NCBI GenBank assembly: GCA_937893635.1
Contig: CALBGF010000212.1
Coordinates: 1 to 19,866, forward strand
Length of the DNA stretch: 19,866 nucleotides
Direction: 5' to 3'
Source: an uncultured Mollicutes bacterium
GTDB lineage: Bacteria > Bacillota_I > Bacilli_A > RFN20 > CAG-826
The translations under genes and the position numbers were made by a program. Positions 10,489 through 19,865 of this stretch are shown here, piece by piece. Under the pieces are notes generated by a model that searched no databases, was not told where the DNA came from, and saw nothing but the letters and a program-made list of their open reading frames with translations. Each line of letters begins with the position of its first letter. The first letter of the stretch is position 1.

Positions 10489-10507
10489 ATCTTTTTTATA
10501 AAAAGAT
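10489..10507. repeat. AT-only dyad upstream of the recombinase gene
   Basis: ATCTTTTT (10489-10496) and AAAAAGAT (10500-10507) form a perfect 8-base inverted repeat. It could be a weak terminator for the MATE gene or a binding site at the recombinase promoter. The stem has only one G-C pair on each side, so neither reading is firm. Confidence 0.3.
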
Positions 10508-10567
10508 ATTAATTTGCCAAAATAATAAATGAGCAAAAAATTTTATTTCAATTAGGAGTTGATAGTA

Positions 10568-11548
10568 GTGAAGTATAAAAAGTGGGCTAATATTTGGCTA
10601 GAAAATTATATTAAACCAACTTTAAAAAACAAAACATATTGGAATTACATGAATATATGTAACAATTATATAATTAAAAAATTTGGAAAAGATGAATTAA
10701 TAGATATAACTCCATTAAAAGTACAATCTTATATAAATGAATTATTAGATAGTAAAAACAAATTATCCATTAGCAGTGTAAATTTAATAATTACAGTTAT
10801 ACAATCTTCAATAAAAATGGCATTTTTGTCGAATAATTTAAAGAGTTATAATTTAGGAAATATACGTAGACCGCATTTAGAAGAAAAAGAAATTACATGT
10901 TTTACTTTTGAAGAACAAAAAATAATTGAAAATAATGTTTGGGCTTCTAAAAAGAAGAAGATGTTAGGCATCATTATATGCTTATATACGGGCATGAGAA
11001 TAGGAGAATTGCTTGCTTTAACCTGGGATGATGTTGATATAGAAAAAAGAATTATAAGCATAAATAAAACATGCCATGAAGGAAAAGATAAAAATGGCAT
11101 ATATCAACGTATTCTTAATAGCCCCAAAACATTTTCTTCAAAAAGAATGATACCTTATCCTAAACAATTAGAAATAATATTTAAGTTACTAAAACAAGAT
11201 AATTCAATATATGTTATTTCTTGTAATCAAAAACCGATATCAGTTAGATCGTATCAAAAGAGTTTTGCGTTATTACTAAAACATGCCAATATAAAGCATA
11301 AAGGATTTCATGCCTTGCGTCATACTTTTGCCACAAGATCAATTGAATGTGGGGTGGATGTTAAAACACTTTCTGAGATTCTAGGACATAAAAATGCGAC
11401 AATTACATTAAATCGCTATGTTCATTCATTATTGAATCATAAAAAAGATATGATGGATAAAATCGGAAATTTATTTAATGATAATCAAGAAAAATTTATT
11501 AGTTCGTCTAATGATATATTAGATGAACAAGTTGTGACACTAGTTTAG
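10568..11548 (+). CDS. Tyrosine recombinase, probable DNA invertase of the adjacent promoter switch
   Basis: A 326-residue tyrosine recombinase. The N-terminal SAM-like DNA-binding domain (about 1-95) precedes the catalytic domain with the full set: Arg144 in TGMRIGELLAL, Lys187, His248 and Arg251 in HALRHTFATR, His274 in LGHKNATI, and nucleophile Tyr284 in NRYVHS. The start is GTG 10568, 9 bases after TTAGGAG; a TTG at 10559 is in frame but abuts that site. There are no phage or conjugation genes nearby, and it directly adjoins a pair of 23-bp inverted repeats. The left repeat (11508-11530) lies within its own 3' end and encodes residues just before the tail VVTLV. Inversion would replace that tail with NSGIINDFSTLNL, giving 334 residues. 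The role as invertase is inferred from this arrangement. Confidence 0.9.
   Translation: MKYKKWANIWLENYIKPTLKNKTYWNYMNICNNYIIKKFGKDELIDITPLKVQSYINELLDSKNKLSISSVNLIITVIQSSIKMAFLSNNLKSYNLGNIRRPHLEEKEITCFTFEEQKIIENNVWASKKKKMLGIIICLYTGMRIGELLALTWDDVDIEKRIISINKTCHEGKDKNGIYQRILNSPKTFSSKRMIPYPKQLEIIFKLLKQDNSIYVISCNQKPISVRSYQKSFALLLKHANIKHKGFHALRHTFATRSIECGVDVKTLSEILGHKNATITLNRYVHSLLNHKKDMMDKIGNLFNDNQEKFISSSNDILDEQVVTLV
11508..11530 (+). repeat. Left inverted repeat (IRL) of the invertible segment
   Basis: 23 bases, perfectly complementary to 11659-11681. It starts CTAATGATATATTAG and ends ATGAACAA. Within it lies an 8-5-8 dyad at 11505-11525 (arms CGTCTAAT and ATTAGATG around GATAT), the form expected of a core site for a pair of tyrosine recombinase monomers. 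It lies inside the recombinase coding sequence. Confidence 0.92.
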
Positions 11549-11570
11549 TAATTTGAAAACATTTTGTCAA
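11542..11570 (-). promoter_or_regulatory. Strong promoter inside the invertible segment, pointing left
   Basis: Minus strand TTGACA (11565-11570), exactly 17 bases, TAAACT (11542-11547). A perfect -35, a 5-of-6 -10 and ideal spacing make this the best sigma-A promoter in the window. The recombinase stop codon overlaps its -10. No gene lies downstream of it in this orientation except the recombinase, antisense. Confidence 0.85.
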
Positions 11571-11592
11571 GAAATTATTTTAGTTAAGCACA

Positions 11593-11617
11593 ATTTTTTG
11601 CAAAAAACGCAAAAAAT
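11593..11617. repeat. A-tract inverted repeat inside the invertible segment
   Basis: ATTTTTTGC (11593-11601), seven bases (including six A), GCAAAAAAT (11609-11617): perfect 9-base arms. Three A/T6 tracts are spaced 8-9 bases apart, which would tend to bend the DNA. It could help bring the two recombination sites together or bind an accessory factor; it has no T-run typical of a terminator. Confidence 0.5.
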
Positions 11618-11658
11618 CATAGGTTTAACGTACTAAAATCATTTATAATTCCTGAATT

Positions 11659-11681
11659 TTGTTCATCTAATATATCATTAG
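11659..11681 (-). repeat. Right inverted repeat (IRR) of the invertible segment
   Basis: The exact reverse complement of 11508-11530, beginning TTGTTCATC. It has the matching 8-5-8 dyad at 11664-11684 (CATCTAAT, ATATC, ATTAGGTG). The outer flanks (11506-11507 and 11682-11683) no longer match, so the repeat ends sharply. Confidence 0.92.
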
Positions 11682-11752
11682 GTGTACAGTTGCCTTCCCG
11701 TTTTATGTTTCGCCAAAAAGGGATTGATTTTATTTATCTTAGGAGGGGCAAA

Positions 11753-12322
11753 ATGAAAAAATTAAGTGCAATTATTGCAATGGCAACAATTATGACAGTC
11801 GGTGGAGTATACGCAACTTTTAATTATGCGCAAGGAGATGCTGATTCTGTATCAGATACATTATCACCTTCAATTGATGGTGCAGTATTAGAAAGTAAAA
11901 AAGGTAAAATAGAAATAATTTCAGATTTTGCAGTAATTATTGACGATTTAGGTGTTATAAATAACACTACTCGTTCTTATGTTACTGGTATGAAAACAAC
12001 TGGAACATTTAAAGTGAAATTCACACCAGAAGTTGGCGCTGATGCCGATGTAAGAGATAATGGTATTAAATTAAAGATGAAATTATCTTTTACTGGTAAT
12101 CAATATGATAACAAAAATATTTTTGTTACTACAGGATTAGATAGCGATAGTTCAGTTGTGTTGGATGAAGGCAATAAAATTATAGGCGAATATGAAGTGG
12201 ATTTAACTAATTATCTTGATGCAAATCATGATATCACATTAGCAACATATGATGAATATCAAGCTTATGAAACTGAATTAAATAAAACAAAAATTACAAT
12301 TGCAATTAGTGAAGCTAAATAA
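11753..12322 (+). CDS. TasA/camelysin-like exported protein with SipW-type signal peptide
   Basis: A 189-residue protein starting MKKLSAIIAMATIMTVGGVYATFNYAQGDADS. The start is ATG 11753 with AGGAGGGG at 11741-11748; an earlier in-frame ATG-less extension lies in the leader. The signal peptide has the GGVYATF motif near its end, the pattern of SipW-dependent substrates (TasA, TapA, CalY). The mature part is beta-rich (EIISDFAVIIDDLGV, TGTFKVKFTPEVG, KLKMKLSFTGNQYD, IIGEYEVDLTNYLD) and acidic, with no Cys, as expected for TasA-like fibre subunits. TasA forms the amyloid-like matrix fibres of Bacillus biofilms. It is the first gene of the operon tasA-like, sipW, second exported protein, and is reachable by the invertible promoter only after inversion. 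A small spore- or surface-associated camelysin-like role is the alternative. Confidence 0.82.
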   Translation: MKKLSAIIAMATIMTVGGVYATFNYAQGDADSVSDTLSPSIDGAVLESKKGKIEIISDFAVIIDDLGVINNTTRSYVTGMKTTGTFKVKFTPEVGADADVRDNGIKLKMKLSFTGNQYDNKNIFVTTGLDSDSSVVLDEGNKIIGEYEVDLTNYLDANHDITLATYDEYQAYETELNKTKITIAISEAK

Positions 12323-12344
12323 ATAGAATTAGGAGAATAAAATT

Positions 12345-13529
12345 ATGGCAGGATACGATAAGTATATTATTGTAGTTTGCCTCATAGTTTTTACAGCATT
12401 AACAGCGGGTTTTACACTTTTAATAATTAATATTGCAAAACTGCGATTAAAAATTATTAAAGGCGGACTTGCCGATAGCGAAATATCAAAATCTGAGCAG
12501 CAAGGAGAAAAGGCGAAACAAAACCATGCTGCTCGTTTAATTATCGATAAAGTGTTATCAGTTTTTTTCTGTATTTTAATGTTATCAGTATTTGGGTTAT
12601 CAATTGGAAATAATATTTCAAGTTCTAAGAAAGTAGGAGAAACTCCAATTGTTAAAGCTGTAAAAAGCGGTTCAATGGCTACAATATATGAGAAAAATGA
12701 ATATATAGTAAAAAATAATTTAACAAATCAAATTAAAAGATATGATTTGATTACTCTTTTTCAATTACCAAGTGAAAACGATTTAAAATTATATGACATT
12801 GTTATGTATGAAACAGATGGAATTTTCGTTATTCATAGAATAGTGAATATTGAAGAACCAAATGATGAACATAGTGAAAGATACTTTTTACTTCAAGGAG
12901 ACGCAAATCAATATCCAGATAGATTCCCAGTGCGCTATTCGCAAATGCTAGGAATTTATAAAAACAATCGTATTCCTTTTTTAGGAAGCTTTGTTGATTT
13001 TATGCAATCTCCAGCAGGATATTTATGTTTATTACTTACAGTTTTTTCTTGTGCTATATCGCCAATTGTGGACAAAAAATTAGATAAAGCAATGGAAGAA
13101 AGAAAATTTGTAATATCTACTCAAAAGAAATATTTGTTTTTTAGGAGTTCTTTTTCTAAAAGAGCAGTCGCAGATTATATAGAACAAAATTATCAAGATA
13201 AAATATATGTAAAAAGAGGTAAAAAATTATCTAGAAGTAGTTTATTAATTCCTGATACATATTACGCTATGCTGGATGGAAAAAATAAGTGTTTTGCTTA
13301 TATTTATGGAACAAAAACTGGTGATGCTATTTTAAGAGTTATTTTAGATGAAAACTCAAAATTAAAGTTTGAAGGAATGAAAGAAACTTTCTTCCCAAAA
13401 TCATATAAAGAAAAATGGTATGTAATTAAGTTGTGTGACAAATCCGAAACAACAGCTCAAACAATTATTGATATTCTTGAATTATCATTTAATAAGATTG
13501 CTAATAAAGAAGTAAAGGAGAAGAAATAA
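12345..13529 (+). CDS. sipW: SipW-type signal peptidase I with an extra C-terminal domain
   Basis: A 394-residue membrane protease, about twice the length of Bacillus SipW. The N-terminal helix (7-31) and a second helix (68-88) precede the catalytic domain: Ser110 in KSGSMA, His164 in DGIFVIHRIV, Asp186 in LLQGDANQYPD. The Ser-His-Asp set marks the ER/SipW type rather than the usual bacterial Ser-Lys type. A further helix (about 223-243) is followed by a cytosolic extension (about 250-394) that I do not firmly recognise. It has a small alpha/beta look (SLLIPDTYYAMLDGKNKCFAYIYGT, FFPKSYKEKWYVIKL, a closing helix) and may be distantly MmcQ/YjbR-like. It lies between two genes whose products carry SipW-type signal peptides and should cleave both. 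AGGAG (12331-12335) precedes ATG 12345; the stop is one base from the next ATG. Confidence 0.9.
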   Translation: MAGYDKYIIVVCLIVFTALTAGFTLLIINIAKLRLKIIKGGLADSEISKSEQQGEKAKQNHAARLIIDKVLSVFFCILMLSVFGLSIGNNISSSKKVGETPIVKAVKSGSMATIYEKNEYIVKNNLTNQIKRYDLITLFQLPSENDLKLYDIVMYETDGIFVIHRIVNIEEPNDEHSERYFLLQGDANQYPDRFPVRYSQMLGIYKNNRIPFLGSFVDFMQSPAGYLCLLLTVFSCAISPIVDKKLDKAMEERKFVISTQKKYLFFRSSFSKRAVADYIEQNYQDKIYVKRGKKLSRSSLLIPDTYYAMLDGKNKCFAYIYGTKTGDAILRVILDENSKLKFEGMKETFFPKSYKEKWYVIKLCDKSETTAQTIIDILELSFNKIANKEVKEKK

Positions 13530-13530
13530 T

Positions 13531-14187
13531 ATGAAAATGTTTAAAAATTCTCTTTTAATTTGTCTTGCTATCTTTACTTTAACTTGTGGAGGAGTGTATG
13601 CAACTTTTGATTACGCTATTAATGATTCATCTTCTATAAATGGAGAAATCGTTGCGAACATTAACGAATTTAAATATTTATTTCCAAATACTGAAGAAGG
13701 AAAAAAACACGAACAATTAACAAATAATATTTTAAATGGAACTGGGACTAATGCCGAAAGTTCGGGATTAAATGATCCTAATTCGAATATTAATAAAGTA
13801 ATAAAAAATCGTTCAGGAACATGGTGGGCAAATAGCAGCGCTCTAGGTAGTTGTGATGGATGGGAACAAGACAGTTTATCAAATTTGTTTGATGAAGATA
13901 CAAAAGATATGTTCTTTTTAATCTATTTCCCTAATGGAGTATCAGATACATATTATTTGTTTACAACTACTGTAAATTTAGGAACATTAAACAATCCAAC
14001 TTTTGCTTATGGAGAAGAATATGTTGAACCAATTTATCGTACAGTGTTAAAACAAAATGCCGGTGGTAAATATGAAGCAATTCAAACTGGTGTTGGAAAA
14101 GCAATGTCGGAAAAGTATAAGAATTATCTTGGAGATTTGGTTTCATCCGCTCCATCGTTTAATCCAACAACTTGGGTGGAAATCTAA
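13531..14187 (+). CDS. Second SipW-type exported protein, unknown mature domain
   Basis: A 218-residue protein starting MKMFKNSLLICLAIFTLTCGGVYATFDYAINDSSS. Its signal peptide shares GGVYATFxYA with the first protein of the operon, so both are likely cut by the SipW enzyme between them. The mature part is unlike the first protein: Asn/Ser/Gly-rich (NNILNGTGTNAESSGLNDPNSN), with SGTWWANSSALGSCDGW, a beta segment MFFLIYFPNGVSDTYYLFTTTVNLG, and a C-terminal helix followed by SFNPTTWVEI. It may be a minor fibre subunit, a tip or an anchor (compare TapA beside TasA), but I recognise no family. AAGGAG lies 10 bases before ATG 13531, overlapping the end of sipW, so expression is tightly linked. Last gene of the operon. 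Confidence 0.8.
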   Translation: MKMFKNSLLICLAIFTLTCGGVYATFDYAINDSSSINGEIVANINEFKYLFPNTEEGKKHEQLTNNILNGTGTNAESSGLNDPNSNINKVIKNRSGTWWANSSALGSCDGWEQDSLSNLFDEDTKDMFFLIYFPNGVSDTYYLFTTTVNLGTLNNPTFAYGEEYVEPIYRTVLKQNAGGKYEAIQTGVGKAMSEKYKNYLGDLVSSAPSFNPTTWVEI

Positions 14188-14450: not shown

Positions 14451-14541
14451 TGGCGGAGAAAAGGGGATTTGAACCCCTGCTGGACTTTCATCCACTGCTA
14501 GTTTTCGAAACTAGTCCCTTCAACCACTTGGGTATTTCTCC
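14451..14541 (-). tRNA. tRNA-Ser, anticodon CGA (reads UCG)
   Basis: 91 bases with a long variable arm as in serine tRNAs. Acceptor GGAGAAA (14535-14541) pairs with TTTCTCC near the 3' end, and CCA is encoded (14451-14453). The anticodon stem CTAGT/ACTAG has loop TTCGAAA, giving CGA. The T arm includes GGTTCAAATCC. The gene stands alone on the minus strand with its own terminator. Confidence 0.95.
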
Positions 14542-15251: not shown

Positions 15252-15279
15252 TTGAATATTGCTCAATTTTGATTATAAT
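15252..15279 (+). promoter_or_regulatory. Sigma-A promoter of the CheA-like gene
   Basis: TTGAAT (15252-15257), 16 bases, TATAAT (15274-15279). It lies right after the preceding terminator. The TTG-initiated extension of the reading frame (from 15269) falls inside this promoter, which argues for the downstream ATG. Confidence 0.65.
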
Positions 15280-15328
15280 AAAACTAGCCTGTAAAATTTA
15301 TTTGGGGAAAATGAAACAAGGTGGGCAT

Positions 15329-16387
15329 ATGGAGACTAGTGTTGATAATACTAATGATGTTAAGACTTTAGCAAATGAGATTTTGCGAATGTTTACTATT
15401 GACGAAAAAGATGATGATTGGGTAAAAGAAGTTCAAATAAAAACACATACTTTAAAAGGATTATGCGGCATTTATGGATTAACTGCTAGTTTTAATCATT
15501 TAAAAATAATGGAAAAATTCATGAAAGTATGTACTATTAACAAAATTACTATTAATAGAGAAATTGCTTATTTTAAAAACATTTTAAATAATTTGCTTAA
15601 AGAAAAGAGCAGCGGTGTTCAAGAAGGATTTACCGCTAAAGACATAAGATGTTATAAAATTGTCTATAATTTTTCTACTGTCGCAGCATTTGAAAATATG
15701 ATCCATGTATTAAATGAACTTACTTTTATTACCAATATTCATGTCGATAGCAGAAAAATAGTTGTGGAAGTATTATCACAAATCCCAATTTCTGATATGA
15801 AACAAATGTTATTTGCATTAGGAATTGTTGACATTAATGTTATCAAACATAAAAAAGTCTCCATTACCAAACCGAAAATTTTGAAAAATATATCTTCTTG
15901 TATAAATTGTATTTGCTATAAAATTATTTTTTTACATTTGTTAGAAATGTGTAATCAATTTTCTAAATACACTCATAAACAATTTAAATTGAGTTTCCAT
16001 TCTAATGTTAAACATTTTACTTTAGAATTTTGGAAAGATTTAAAAGTTCCTTTTATGGAATTAATAAAAAATGCATTTACTCATAGTTCCGATGATAAAA
16101 AGTTAAGAATAATTGTTAACATTGTGAAAATAAAAGGAAAACTAAACATATATGTCTACAATTCTAACTCAAAAGTTAAAAATGGAAGTAAAATATTTGA
16201 TTATCAATACACCACATCTAAAAGTGAAGATTTAAGCGGAAATGGTGTAGGATTATTCGAAACAAAACGACTAATTAATGGTCTAGGGGGAACAATTAAA
16301 TATCGTAATCATATGTTAGGAGTGTATTTTTTAATGTCGTTCCCAAATGAGAAATTTTCTTCAACACATGAGCATGTAAAACTTTAA
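15329..16387 (+). CDS. CheA-like histidine kinase (HPt + P2-like + ATPase) lacking the CheW-binding domain
   Basis: A 352-residue cytosolic protein from ATG 15329 (AAGGTG five bases upstream; ATG 15311 in frame is the alternative). Residues about 10-92 form an HPt helical bundle with phospho-acceptor His40 in KTHTLKGLCGIYG, very like CheA. Residues about 105-175 have the alternating strand-helix form of a CheA P2 response-regulator docking domain. Residues about 195-340 are a histidine kinase-type ATPase: N box ELIKNAFTH (244-252) preceded by LEFWKDLKVPF as in CheA, and G2 motif GNGVGLFETKRLINGLGG (304-321). The G1 box DxGxG is replaced by YNSNS, losing the Asp that contacts adenine, so ATP use is doubtful. 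No P5/CheW-like domain, no TM segment and no chemotaxis gene nearby. It could be an HPt-type phosphorelay or scaffold protein. Confidence 0.7.
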   Translation: METSVDNTNDVKTLANEILRMFTIDEKDDDWVKEVQIKTHTLKGLCGIYGLTASFNHLKIMEKFMKVCTINKITINREIAYFKNILNNLLKEKSSGVQEGFTAKDIRCYKIVYNFSTVAAFENMIHVLNELTFITNIHVDSRKIVVEVLSQIPISDMKQMLFALGIVDINVIKHKKVSITKPKILKNISSCINCICYKIIFLHLLEMCNQFSKYTHKQFKLSFHSNVKHFTLEFWKDLKVPFMELIKNAFTHSSDDKKLRIIVNIVKIKGKLNIYVYNSNSKVKNGSKIFDYQYTTSKSEDLSGNGVGLFETKRLINGLGGTIKYRNHMLGVYFLMSFPNEKFSSTHEHVKL

Positions 16388-16447
16388 TTTTGTCTAAGCA
16401 AATTTTTTGACCAATTTAACTTTTAAAAAAGTTTACTTTATTTAATT

Positions 16448-16463
16448 TATATACAAGTATATA
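16448..16463. promoter_or_regulatory. Palindrome over the -10 of the GGDEF-EAL/proS transcript
   Basis: TATATAC (16448-16454), two bases, GTATATA (16457-16463): perfect 7-base arms that run into a TATAAT at 16460-16465. A -35-like TTTATT at 16437-16442 gives a 17-base spacer. It could be an operator, but AT-rich palindromes are common by chance. Confidence 0.35.
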
Positions 16464-16482
16464 ATATTAACAGGTGAAATTT

Positions 16483-18228
16483 ATGACTCGTTATTTTGTA
16501 TACCTTATTAGCGATACTAAACTTACACAGCTACTTGTATTACTTGCCGTAGCTATTTTTGTCGTGATAGTGGTCAGCATGATTTTATCTAATCATGAAA
16601 ACGTCAATGTAAAAAAGAAATTCGAATTAGCGGAAAATACTACTAGAATAATTTGTATTGATGCTAAAAATAACAAAGTGCGATATTTTAATAAATCAAA
16701 CATTGAGCATCAAGTTGTTTGTTCTATTGATGAATTCTTAAATAATTTTCCAACAGAAGAGAAAGTTCGTTTTGAAAAATGGATTGATGAATTATTATCC
16801 ACTAAGAAAAATGTTAGTGATTATTTAGAAGTAGATGTTATTTTTGAAAAAGAAAAGAAAAGTTATTATTCTTTTATACAACTTCAAAAATTAGATAAAA
16901 GAAAGAAAATCATTCATCTTGAAAGTTATGTAATGAAGTATCTTGATGTCAAAAATAAAACTGATAAAAAGAAACTTTCTAATATTACGGTAACAAACAT
17001 TGAACAAATGTTAACTATCGAGAAAATGAAAAACAAAAATAAAGGTTCTTTCTTATTCGTAGCATTTAGAAATACTAAAATTCAAGATGAAGATGATGAC
17101 AAAGTAAGTTCTTTATTCTTTGTATGCGCTAAAAATATTATTGCTCCATATTTAACAAATAACTGCACTATTGCGGATTATTCACAATCTTCATTCACTA
17201 TTTATTATCCAGGAATAAGTTCAAGAAAAAATTTATTACGTTTAATGCATAGCATTTCTAAAACAATATCCAAATATTTAAAAATTAATTCTTACAATGA
17301 AGATTATAATTATTCCATTACCGGAACATTAATTAATGAAGAAAATTGTACTTATAAACAATTAGTTCGTAATACTAAATCTATTTCTGTTACAGCAATG
17401 GACCATAATGATCATATTATGATTTATGATGATAATAGCGTTTCAAGCGTTGAAATTACTTCTTCATATGAAAACGAATTTAATACGCTTATTAGTAAAA
17501 AAGATTTCAAGATTTTATATCAACCAGTTATTAATATTAAAACTGGATCCATACTAGCGTATAATTCAACAATTAAATGTAACAACACAATTTTCTCGAA
17601 TATTCAAGAATTAAAAGAATATGCTTATAAAGTTGGTAAGATTAAAGATTTATTTGCAATGTTTAACAAAAAAATACTTAGTCGTTACTTAAATGAAAAT
17701 ATTTCTAATGTTAAATTAATTTATAATGTTTCAGTTCTAGAAAGAGAACATGTTGCAAAAAGCTTTTCTCATATCGCTGGCATTGATAGTGAAGATATTA
17801 TTCTTGCATTTAGTGAACTTGAAATATCTGAATGGCTTTCAGAAGAAGAAGAAATTATTTCTTCAATTGTTAATTTAAAAGAACATGGTTATAAAGTGGC
17901 TTTAAAAATTGATAAAAAAGAATTGTTGCTTACAAATGAATTAATGAAAGTGTTCGATTATTTCATTTTAGATAGCGAATTAATTAAAGATTGTCGTAAG
18001 AGCGGTAGATCAATTTTGATTATCCATACTCTTATTGATACTTTAAAGAGTTATGATAAAAATATCATTGCTTATGGATTAGATACTAATAACTCAATGT
18101 ATTTGATTTGTAAGATGGGAATTAAATATGTTTCAAGTAATTTGATTAGCCAAGCAGATGAAATGATTTTACCAATTGAAAAGAAAAAATTAAGTAAAGT
18201 TATGACTCTCGTTAACGGCAAGAAGTAG
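16483..18228 (+). CDS. Degenerate GGDEF-EAL protein with one membrane helix and a PAS-like domain
   Basis: A 581-residue protein from ATG 16483 (AGGTG six bases upstream; the GTG inside that site is rejected as start). One N-terminal TM helix (about 16-36) is followed by a PAS-like region (about 55-150), a degenerate GGDEF domain (about 185-315) and a degenerate EAL domain (about 335-570). The GGDEF signature site reads DYSQSSF, so no cyclase activity is expected. In the EAL domain KILYQPVINIKTGSILAYNSTIKC has lost the EAL glutamate; the DDFG site reads KIDKK; AEGVE reads AYGLDT. Only fold residues such as LIYNVS remain. It is therefore probably not a phosphodiesterase but a nucleotide sensor or a protein-interaction module. 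It ends 12 bases before proS and shares its transcript. Confidence 0.78.
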   Translation: MTRYFVYLISDTKLTQLLVLLAVAIFVVIVVSMILSNHENVNVKKKFELAENTTRIICIDAKNNKVRYFNKSNIEHQVVCSIDEFLNNFPTEEKVRFEKWIDELLSTKKNVSDYLEVDVIFEKEKKSYYSFIQLQKLDKRKKIIHLESYVMKYLDVKNKTDKKKLSNITVTNIEQMLTIEKMKNKNKGSFLFVAFRNTKIQDEDDDKVSSLFFVCAKNIIAPYLTNNCTIADYSQSSFTIYYPGISSRKNLLRLMHSISKTISKYLKINSYNEDYNYSITGTLINEENCTYKQLVRNTKSISVTAMDHNDHIMIYDDNSVSSVEITSSYENEFNTLISKKDFKILYQPVINIKTGSILAYNSTIKCNNTIFSNIQELKEYAYKVGKIKDLFAMFNKKILSRYLNENISNVKLIYNVSVLEREHVAKSFSHIAGIDSEDIILAFSELEISEWLSEEEEIISSIVNLKEHGYKVALKIDKKELLLTNELMKVFDYFILDSELIKDCRKSGRSILIIHTLIDTLKSYDKNIIAYGLDTNNSMYLICKMGIKYVSSNLISQADEMILPIEKKKLSKVMTLVNGKK

Positions 18229-19774: not shown

Positions 19775-19865
19775 GGAGCAATACCCAAGTTGGTGAAGGG
19801 GCGTCCCTGCTAAGGACGTAGATCGGGTAACTGGTGCGAGAGTTCGAGTCTCTCTTGCTCCGCCA
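19775..19865 (+). tRNA. tRNA-Ser, anticodon GCU (reads AGC/AGU)
   Basis: 91 bases with encoded CCA (19863-19865). Acceptor GGAGCAA pairs with TTGCTCC. The anticodon stem CGTCC/GGACG has loop CTGCTAA, giving anticodon GCT. A long variable arm and a T arm with AGTTCGAGTCT complete a type II serine tRNA. Confidence 0.96.

Follow-up and report, generated by a model that had tools for sequence, protein, structure and literature searches.

In the fimS/FimE system of Escherichia coli a promoter lies in a short inverted segment beside a tyrosine recombinase gene, and the orientation of the segment feeds back on the recombinase. The locus described here differs from that system in that the recombinase frame itself enters the segment, so that the protein sequence would change with orientation. 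Invertible promoters ("invertons") with a neighbouring tyrosine recombinase are already known from gut Clostridia, for example inverton group 139/invertase group 35, which passages of PMC11892184 place mostly in Clostridia and for which they describe flipping measured in culture. Short inverted repeats and a nearby tyrosine-type recombinase are common to this group and our locus; the two group-139 examples quoted in these passages have inner gaps of 205 and 227 bases, compared to 128 bases here, and no SipW target is named in them (PMC11892184). Group 139/35 may be the very group to which our recombinase belongs, the comparison being one of description and not of repeat motif.

Two further systems are related. 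The C. difficile switches Cdi1-Cdi7, some of which are flipped by RecV, are, in the passages of PMC5903667, likewise segments that invert next to genes for surface or signalling functions; a single recombinase acts on several of them there, whereas the recombinase studied here abuts its own switch. A secreted-protein operon dependent on SipW is represented by the C. perfringens sipW-bsaA matrix operon, whose bimodal expression requires a two-component system according to PMC7395162, whereas for our locus we propose that the two states arise by DNA inversion. A search of the open PMC literature at record level found no report of a SipW operon under DNA inversion. We take three things as new: that the target is a SipW operon, that the tail of the recombinase lies within the switch, and the rule for sites and spacing presented below.

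The window, i.e. the whole stretch of 19,866 nucleotides that was analysed, with coordinates counted from its first letter, contains a tyrosine recombinase gene followed by a short segment between inverted repeats and three tightly packed genes to the right of it. With a probability of roughly 0.85, judged from sequence comparison, the segment 11508-11681 is flipped by the adjoining upstream recombinase, and a flip would place the operon for a SipW-like peptidase and two secreted proteins under a predicted promoter. The features are as follows.

10559..11548, plus strand: tyrosine recombinase, 329 aa from TTG 10559 (PF00589 96.4 bits, PF14659 43.6 bits)
11502..11528, plus strand: left core recombination site GTTCGTCTAAT-GATAT-ATTAGATGAAC, a motif common to recombinase relatives
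11508..11530, plus strand: left inverted repeat, 23 bp
11542..11570, minus strand: predicted promoter TTGACA-N17-TAAACT, pointing left (OFF; antisense to the recombinase gene), a motif that fits the register of the family
11659..11681, minus strand: right inverted repeat, 23 bp
11661..11687, plus strand: right core recombination site GTTCATCTAAT-ATATC-ATTAGGTGTAC
11741..11746, plus strand: ribosome-binding site AGGAGG
11753..12322, plus strand: secreted protein 1, 189 aa, SipW-type signal sequence (GGVYATFNYAQG), predicted beta-rich
12345..13529, plus strand: SipW-like signal peptidase, 394 aa (NF046067 and TIGR02228 below cut-off)
13531..14187, plus strand: secreted protein 2, 218 aa, SipW-type signal sequence

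The perfect 23-bp inverted repeats with 128 bp between them, on which an earlier note on this DNA had built, were confirmed, and together with the DNA between them they make up a segment of 174 bases bracketed as in an inverton. Perfect inverted repeats of at least 20 bases within 650 bases were found in none of 200 first-order shuffles of the window, while repeats of at least 18 bases occurred in 1 and of at least 16 bases in 6 of the 200. The repeats turned out to belong to two core sites of 27 bp, whose 5-bp spacers are complementary. The left site consists of two 11-bp arms, paired at 10 of 11 positions, around the spacer 11513-11517; in the right site 9 of 11 positions are paired, and its spacer (11672-11676) is the exact reverse complement of the left one. 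With the segment ON, the leader transcript would include the right core site, which can form a 10-pair hairpin (-7.7 kcal/mol).

The recombinase gene had been thought to end at the left repeat. Its frame instead runs through the repeat, crossing the left site as the peptide SSNDILDEQ, and stops inside the segment at 11548. Inversion in silico changed the end of the protein from DEQ-VVTLV to DEQ-NSGIINDFSTLNL; since the frame runs through the left recombination site, each flip would swap these C-terminal residues. The true start is likely GTG 10568, as in the public relative P0001. The protein carries the PF00589 catalytic domain, with R145, H249, R252, H275 and Y285 invariant in 18 sequences, which we take to be the catalytic residues (conserved R, H-x-x-R, H, Y). 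Assignment as a Xer equivalog was rejected, the scores being 88.5 bits for XerA, 67.3 for XerC and 54.8 for XerD against NCBIfam cut-offs of 220, 335.15 and 329.6, respectively.

The leftward promoter motif TTGACA-N17-TAAACT was indeed present on the minus strand at 11570..11542, and its score of 10/12 was the best, tied with three others, among 19 sigma-70-like matches in the scanned stretch. As 17.1 such matches are expected there by chance, the motif alone proves little; the segment holds it in the register of the family, and from there outward transcription is predicted. The operon starts with ATG 11753, 72 bases right of the right repeat as had been stated, and the claim that it lacks a good promoter of its own agrees with the finding of no plus-strand promoter match in 11682-11752. 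Inversion would place the end of the -10 element 106 bases before this ATG, close to the approx. 105 bases given earlier, with a transcript start approx. 99 bases upstream of the ATG. While the segment is OFF, transcription from this promoter would run antisense through the recombinase gene. A weaker match inside the segment, TTGAAA-N17-TATTTT (9/12, 11553-11581), points right, at the operon, in the OFF orientation, and the OFF state may therefore leak.

One Clostridia-like order yielded 80 matches to the recombinase at E <= 1e-75, spread over 56 of 297 genomes. In the order to which G414 belongs, 4 of 279 genomes had a relative of it (E <= 1e-70); in the family of G320 none of 146 genomes did. 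We compared 40 of these 84 matches together with their flanks, namely 36 of the 80, mostly the best scoring ones, and all 4 from the order of G414. Inverted repeats adjoin most of the recombinase stops, each with a different sequence and all built on one plan, a 5-bp spacer between a pair of 11-bp arms of the GTTCATCnAAT type. A site pair was scored when two 27-bp cores, GTWCAY-N15-RTGWAC, reached a summed motif score of at least 19 out of 24 and had exactly complementary spacers. Such a pair was present beside the recombinase stop in 30 of 41 loci, i.e. in the window, with a score of 23/24, and in 29 of the 40 relatives; these are not independent, many of the recombinases being more than 80% identical in DNA and L106 and L120 representing one switch. 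The window differs from its relatives in where the protein ends: the 40 relatives stop 0 to approx. 15 residues past the conserved LGKLL region, compared to 23 residues in the window. The left site starts 4 to 218 bases after the recombinase stop in the 29 relatives with a scored pair, and in L131 one site touches the stop codon.

Among the 11 loci without a scored pair, L110 and L124 have less than 50 bases after the stop, and L104, L112, L127 and L131 have repeats with matching spacers by eye; in L117, L130, L132, L136 and L137 neither a scored pair nor repeats visible by eye were found. The contigs of L105, L110 and L124 break off at or close to the switch, 205, 48 and 31 bases past the recombinase stop, an outcome that assembly from mixed orientations could produce.

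If the segment inverts, it might mainly control the recombinase, with antisense RNA and the swapped tail altering its activity, while the SipW operon is transcribed from another promoter. The OFF promoter does point into the recombinase gene, with no terminator-like site found in 10500-12500, the tail is exchanged by inversion, and the weak rightward match lies within the segment. Between the repeat and the operon, however, there is no plus-strand promoter match, and 22 of the 29 pair-bearing relatives have a frame of 80 or more codons on the plus strand that starts within 200 bases of the right site, which fits control of a downstream gene. The remaining seven are L105, where the contig ends, L113, L125, L129, L134, L139 and L142. 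We consider control of mainly the recombinase unlikely, and prefer the reading in which the segment switches the operon.

To see what lies downstream of the cassette we scanned 17 loci, 15 with a scored pair as well as L112 and L131. Restriction or defence-type genes followed in 7 of the 17: HKD and Snf2 domains in L106, type III in L107, type IIG/II in L108 and L142, a cytosine methylase in L116 and L119, and TIR in L121. Surface-type proteins were found in 6, with BspA repeats in L114 and L133, Listeria-Bacteroides repeats in L118, L126 and L140, and a MACPF domain in L134. L112 has a helicase and L131 an AraC regulator; the downstream genes of L109 and L128 gave no family match. The position of the cassette before restriction-modification and defence genes suggests phase-variable defence in uncultured Clostridia.

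No match to the SipW-like peptidase or the secreted proteins of the window was found in the 40 recombinase loci, and 59 loci with SipW relatives gave no recombinase match in flanks of up to 7 kb (less at contig ends). As the targets in the scanned relatives differ, the cassette, though common, has an unusual target in the SipW operon. Longest contigs of equal size suggested two further links between SipW and recombinase, P0018/P0141 (52,933) and P0023/P0143 (162,070). In G005 the SipW and recombinase genes lie on one contig of 108,354 bases approx. 23 kb apart, and because of this distance the two pairs show at most presence on the same contig.

At the scoring threshold the site pairs were specific to the recombinase. 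Apart from those beside the stop, none occurred in the 421,915 bases of the 41 loci, in 3,900 shuffled regions, or in the 59 SipW-relative loci (705,804 bases). With a looser threshold of 16, pairs appeared in 27 of 780 shuffles; the 41 loci had 25 pairs away from the recombinase stop, and another 39 occurred in the 59 loci with SipW relatives. By sequence, the window recombinase is a member of a group of putative local invertases. This bears on whether the switch could be inverted by another recombinase of the same genome, for which RecV of C. difficile, described as acting at distant sites in passages of PMC5903667, is a precedent. The core-site pair, however, adjoins this group of recombinases and was not found elsewhere in the same loci, which makes a second enzyme very unlikely; the recombinase upstream is the better candidate.

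The distance between the two sites in the 29 relatives clustered near 138, 148 and 159 bases, with outliers at 118 and 202. The spacing followed a period of 10.65 bp (R 0.82), and none of 5,000 jittered sets was as strong; the 159 bases in the window are in phase. The distance from the outer spacer edge inward to the end of the -10 element peaked at 28-30 bases for promoter matches with a score of at least 10 (3, 7 and 1 loci at these three distances, at most 2 at any other), and the -10 element of the window, ending 29 bases from that edge, is in register. The best promoter match was off register in L105, L119, L121, L138, L140 and L141. Read by this register, 16 of the 29 relatives are OFF, with the promoter facing the recombinase, 5 are ON and 8 are unclear; the register was derived from the same loci that it then calls, and several calls were made on weak matches (score 9.5). 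The OFF orientation that had been proposed for the window is well supported by the comparison with its relatives.

Switches in both orientations were detected, at two levels. In DNA, L106 and L120, which come from two genomes, have recombinase genes that are 90.7% identical and flanks that are 98.8% (left) and 99.3% (right) identical, while the segment between them is 99.3% identical when inverted and 61.4% when aligned directly. The outer arms are in place and the inner arms have moved, as expected for strand exchange in the spacer. L108 and L115 form a weaker second pair (73.9% inverted, 59.5% direct). At the protein level, the peptide SNDILDEQ is common to four public recombinases, which were compared as cluster representatives only. 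P0001 (94% identical to the window recombinase, cluster of 70 sequences) and P0004 (cluster of 5) have the tail of the window, whereas P0002 (93% identical) ends in NSGIINNFSRFNQ. This tail agrees with the translated flipped segment in 9 of 13 residues, and no other stretch of 13 residues in a six-frame translation of the window agrees with it as well. A search with the flipped-tail region matched P0002 over the whole region with an E of 3.8e-13, compared to 1.4e-8 for P0004 and 2.4e-8 for P0001 over 71% of it. For the lineage of the window itself the flipped state is represented by P0002, one single-member cluster representative that covers only the left junction. In P0003 (68% identical) SNDILDEQ is exact while most of the ten preceding residues differ, as expected if the DNA site and not the peptide is constrained.

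Comparison with relatives, which the earlier note had named as a way to check its claim, gave opposite orientations of another switch of the group in DNA (L106/L120) and the flipped tail at the protein level (P0002). The reading as an invertible promoter flipped by the adjacent tyrosine recombinase is well supported by comparison, namely by the core sites with their complementary spacers, the promoter register, the helical phasing, the L106/L120 pair and the flipped tail of P0002. That the repeats are inactive remnants of an integrated mobile element, i.e. integrase attachment sites, is hardly credible: the recombinase does look like an integrase (PF00589; Int protein of PDB 6en0, E 2e-16), but the sites are inverted with complementary spacers, lie 159 bases apart enclosing only a promoter match, recur in this layout in 29 of 40 relatives with different neighbours, and exist in opposite orientations (P0002; L106/L120).

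In the proposed inversion mechanism the recombinase would bind the arms of the sites and exchange strands in the spacer, most likely with the two sites brought together across a loop of matching helical phase. The cells would then form a population with two heritable states of SipW-dependent surface or matrix proteins. If this is true, DNA inversion would decide, as a heritable coin flip, whether SipW-dependent secreted proteins, perhaps of a matrix, are produced. The sequence rule, i.e. pairs of GTWCAY-N15-RTGWAC with complementary spacers, 10.6-bp phasing and a -10 element near 29 bases from the spacer edge, would let such switches, and often also their present state, be read from assembled genomes of uncultured Bacillota.

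A more far-reaching possibility, which we hold tentatively and think rather less likely true than false, is that the switch edits its own enzyme. Each inversion would give the recombinase a different C-terminus and the OFF orientation an antisense promoter, and orientation would therefore set the flipping rate in each direction. The locus would then be one case of a large modular group of recombinases with a switch at the 3' end, in which one helically phased core-site rule brings the same kind of phase variation to restriction systems, to surface proteins and, in this case, to a SipW operon. Whether a recombinase can be tuned by a tail rewritten in its own reaction would thereby become testable.

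The first gene of the operon had been called tasA-like, and this identity was not borne out. Secreted protein 1 gave no TasA family match in profile searches. Its model is beta-rich (pLDDT 79) and gave no significant structural match, the TasA structure 5of2 ranking 27 in Foldseek with a non-significant E of 0.70. Of 37 aligned sequences, TIGR04088 (SipW-signal) matched 2, with a best E of 0.7, and TIGR04090 (BsaA matrix) 1, with an E of 0.032; the protein of the window was not among them. Secreted protein 1 is TasA-like by context only, and as TasA identity is unsupported, the word fibre depends on the SipW-like peptidase next to it and on the signal sequences of SipW type. In view of the missing family or fold match we named the operon a SipW-type secreted-protein operon and not a TasA operon. 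Matches to secreted protein 1 were present in 46 of the 59 SipW-relative loci (E <= 1e-4).

The peptidase is of the ER-type signal peptidase I, with S110, H164 and D186 invariant in 19 sequences; these are presumably the conserved Ser, His and Asp of this type. Its profile matched SEC11A with an E of 6.8e-4. A SipW assignment by curated cut-off was rejected (NF046067, 49.1 bits compared to 190), and TIGR02228 reached 49.0 bits against a cut-off of 51.85. The peptidase has a C-terminal extension of approx. 140 residues, which is absent in some relatives (P0154, P0155, P0157).

Secreted protein 2 had matches in 20 of the 59 SipW-relative loci, around the peptidase. It matches only approx. residues 1-228 of six homologs of approx. 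327 residues, the C-terminal approx. 100 aa being missing. In L029 the part in question models as a separate beta domain resembling the collagen-binding domain of ColH (Foldseek E 4.1e-5); directly after secreted protein 2 in the window no remnant of it was found. A tRNA-Ser (cga) follows the operon on the minus strand at 14451-14541. Further downstream, at 15269-18228, a HATPase-domain protein and an EAL-domain protein are encoded on the strand of the operon, and a link between cyclic-di-GMP signalling and the operon is possible. A second tRNA-Ser (gct) is located at 19775-19865.
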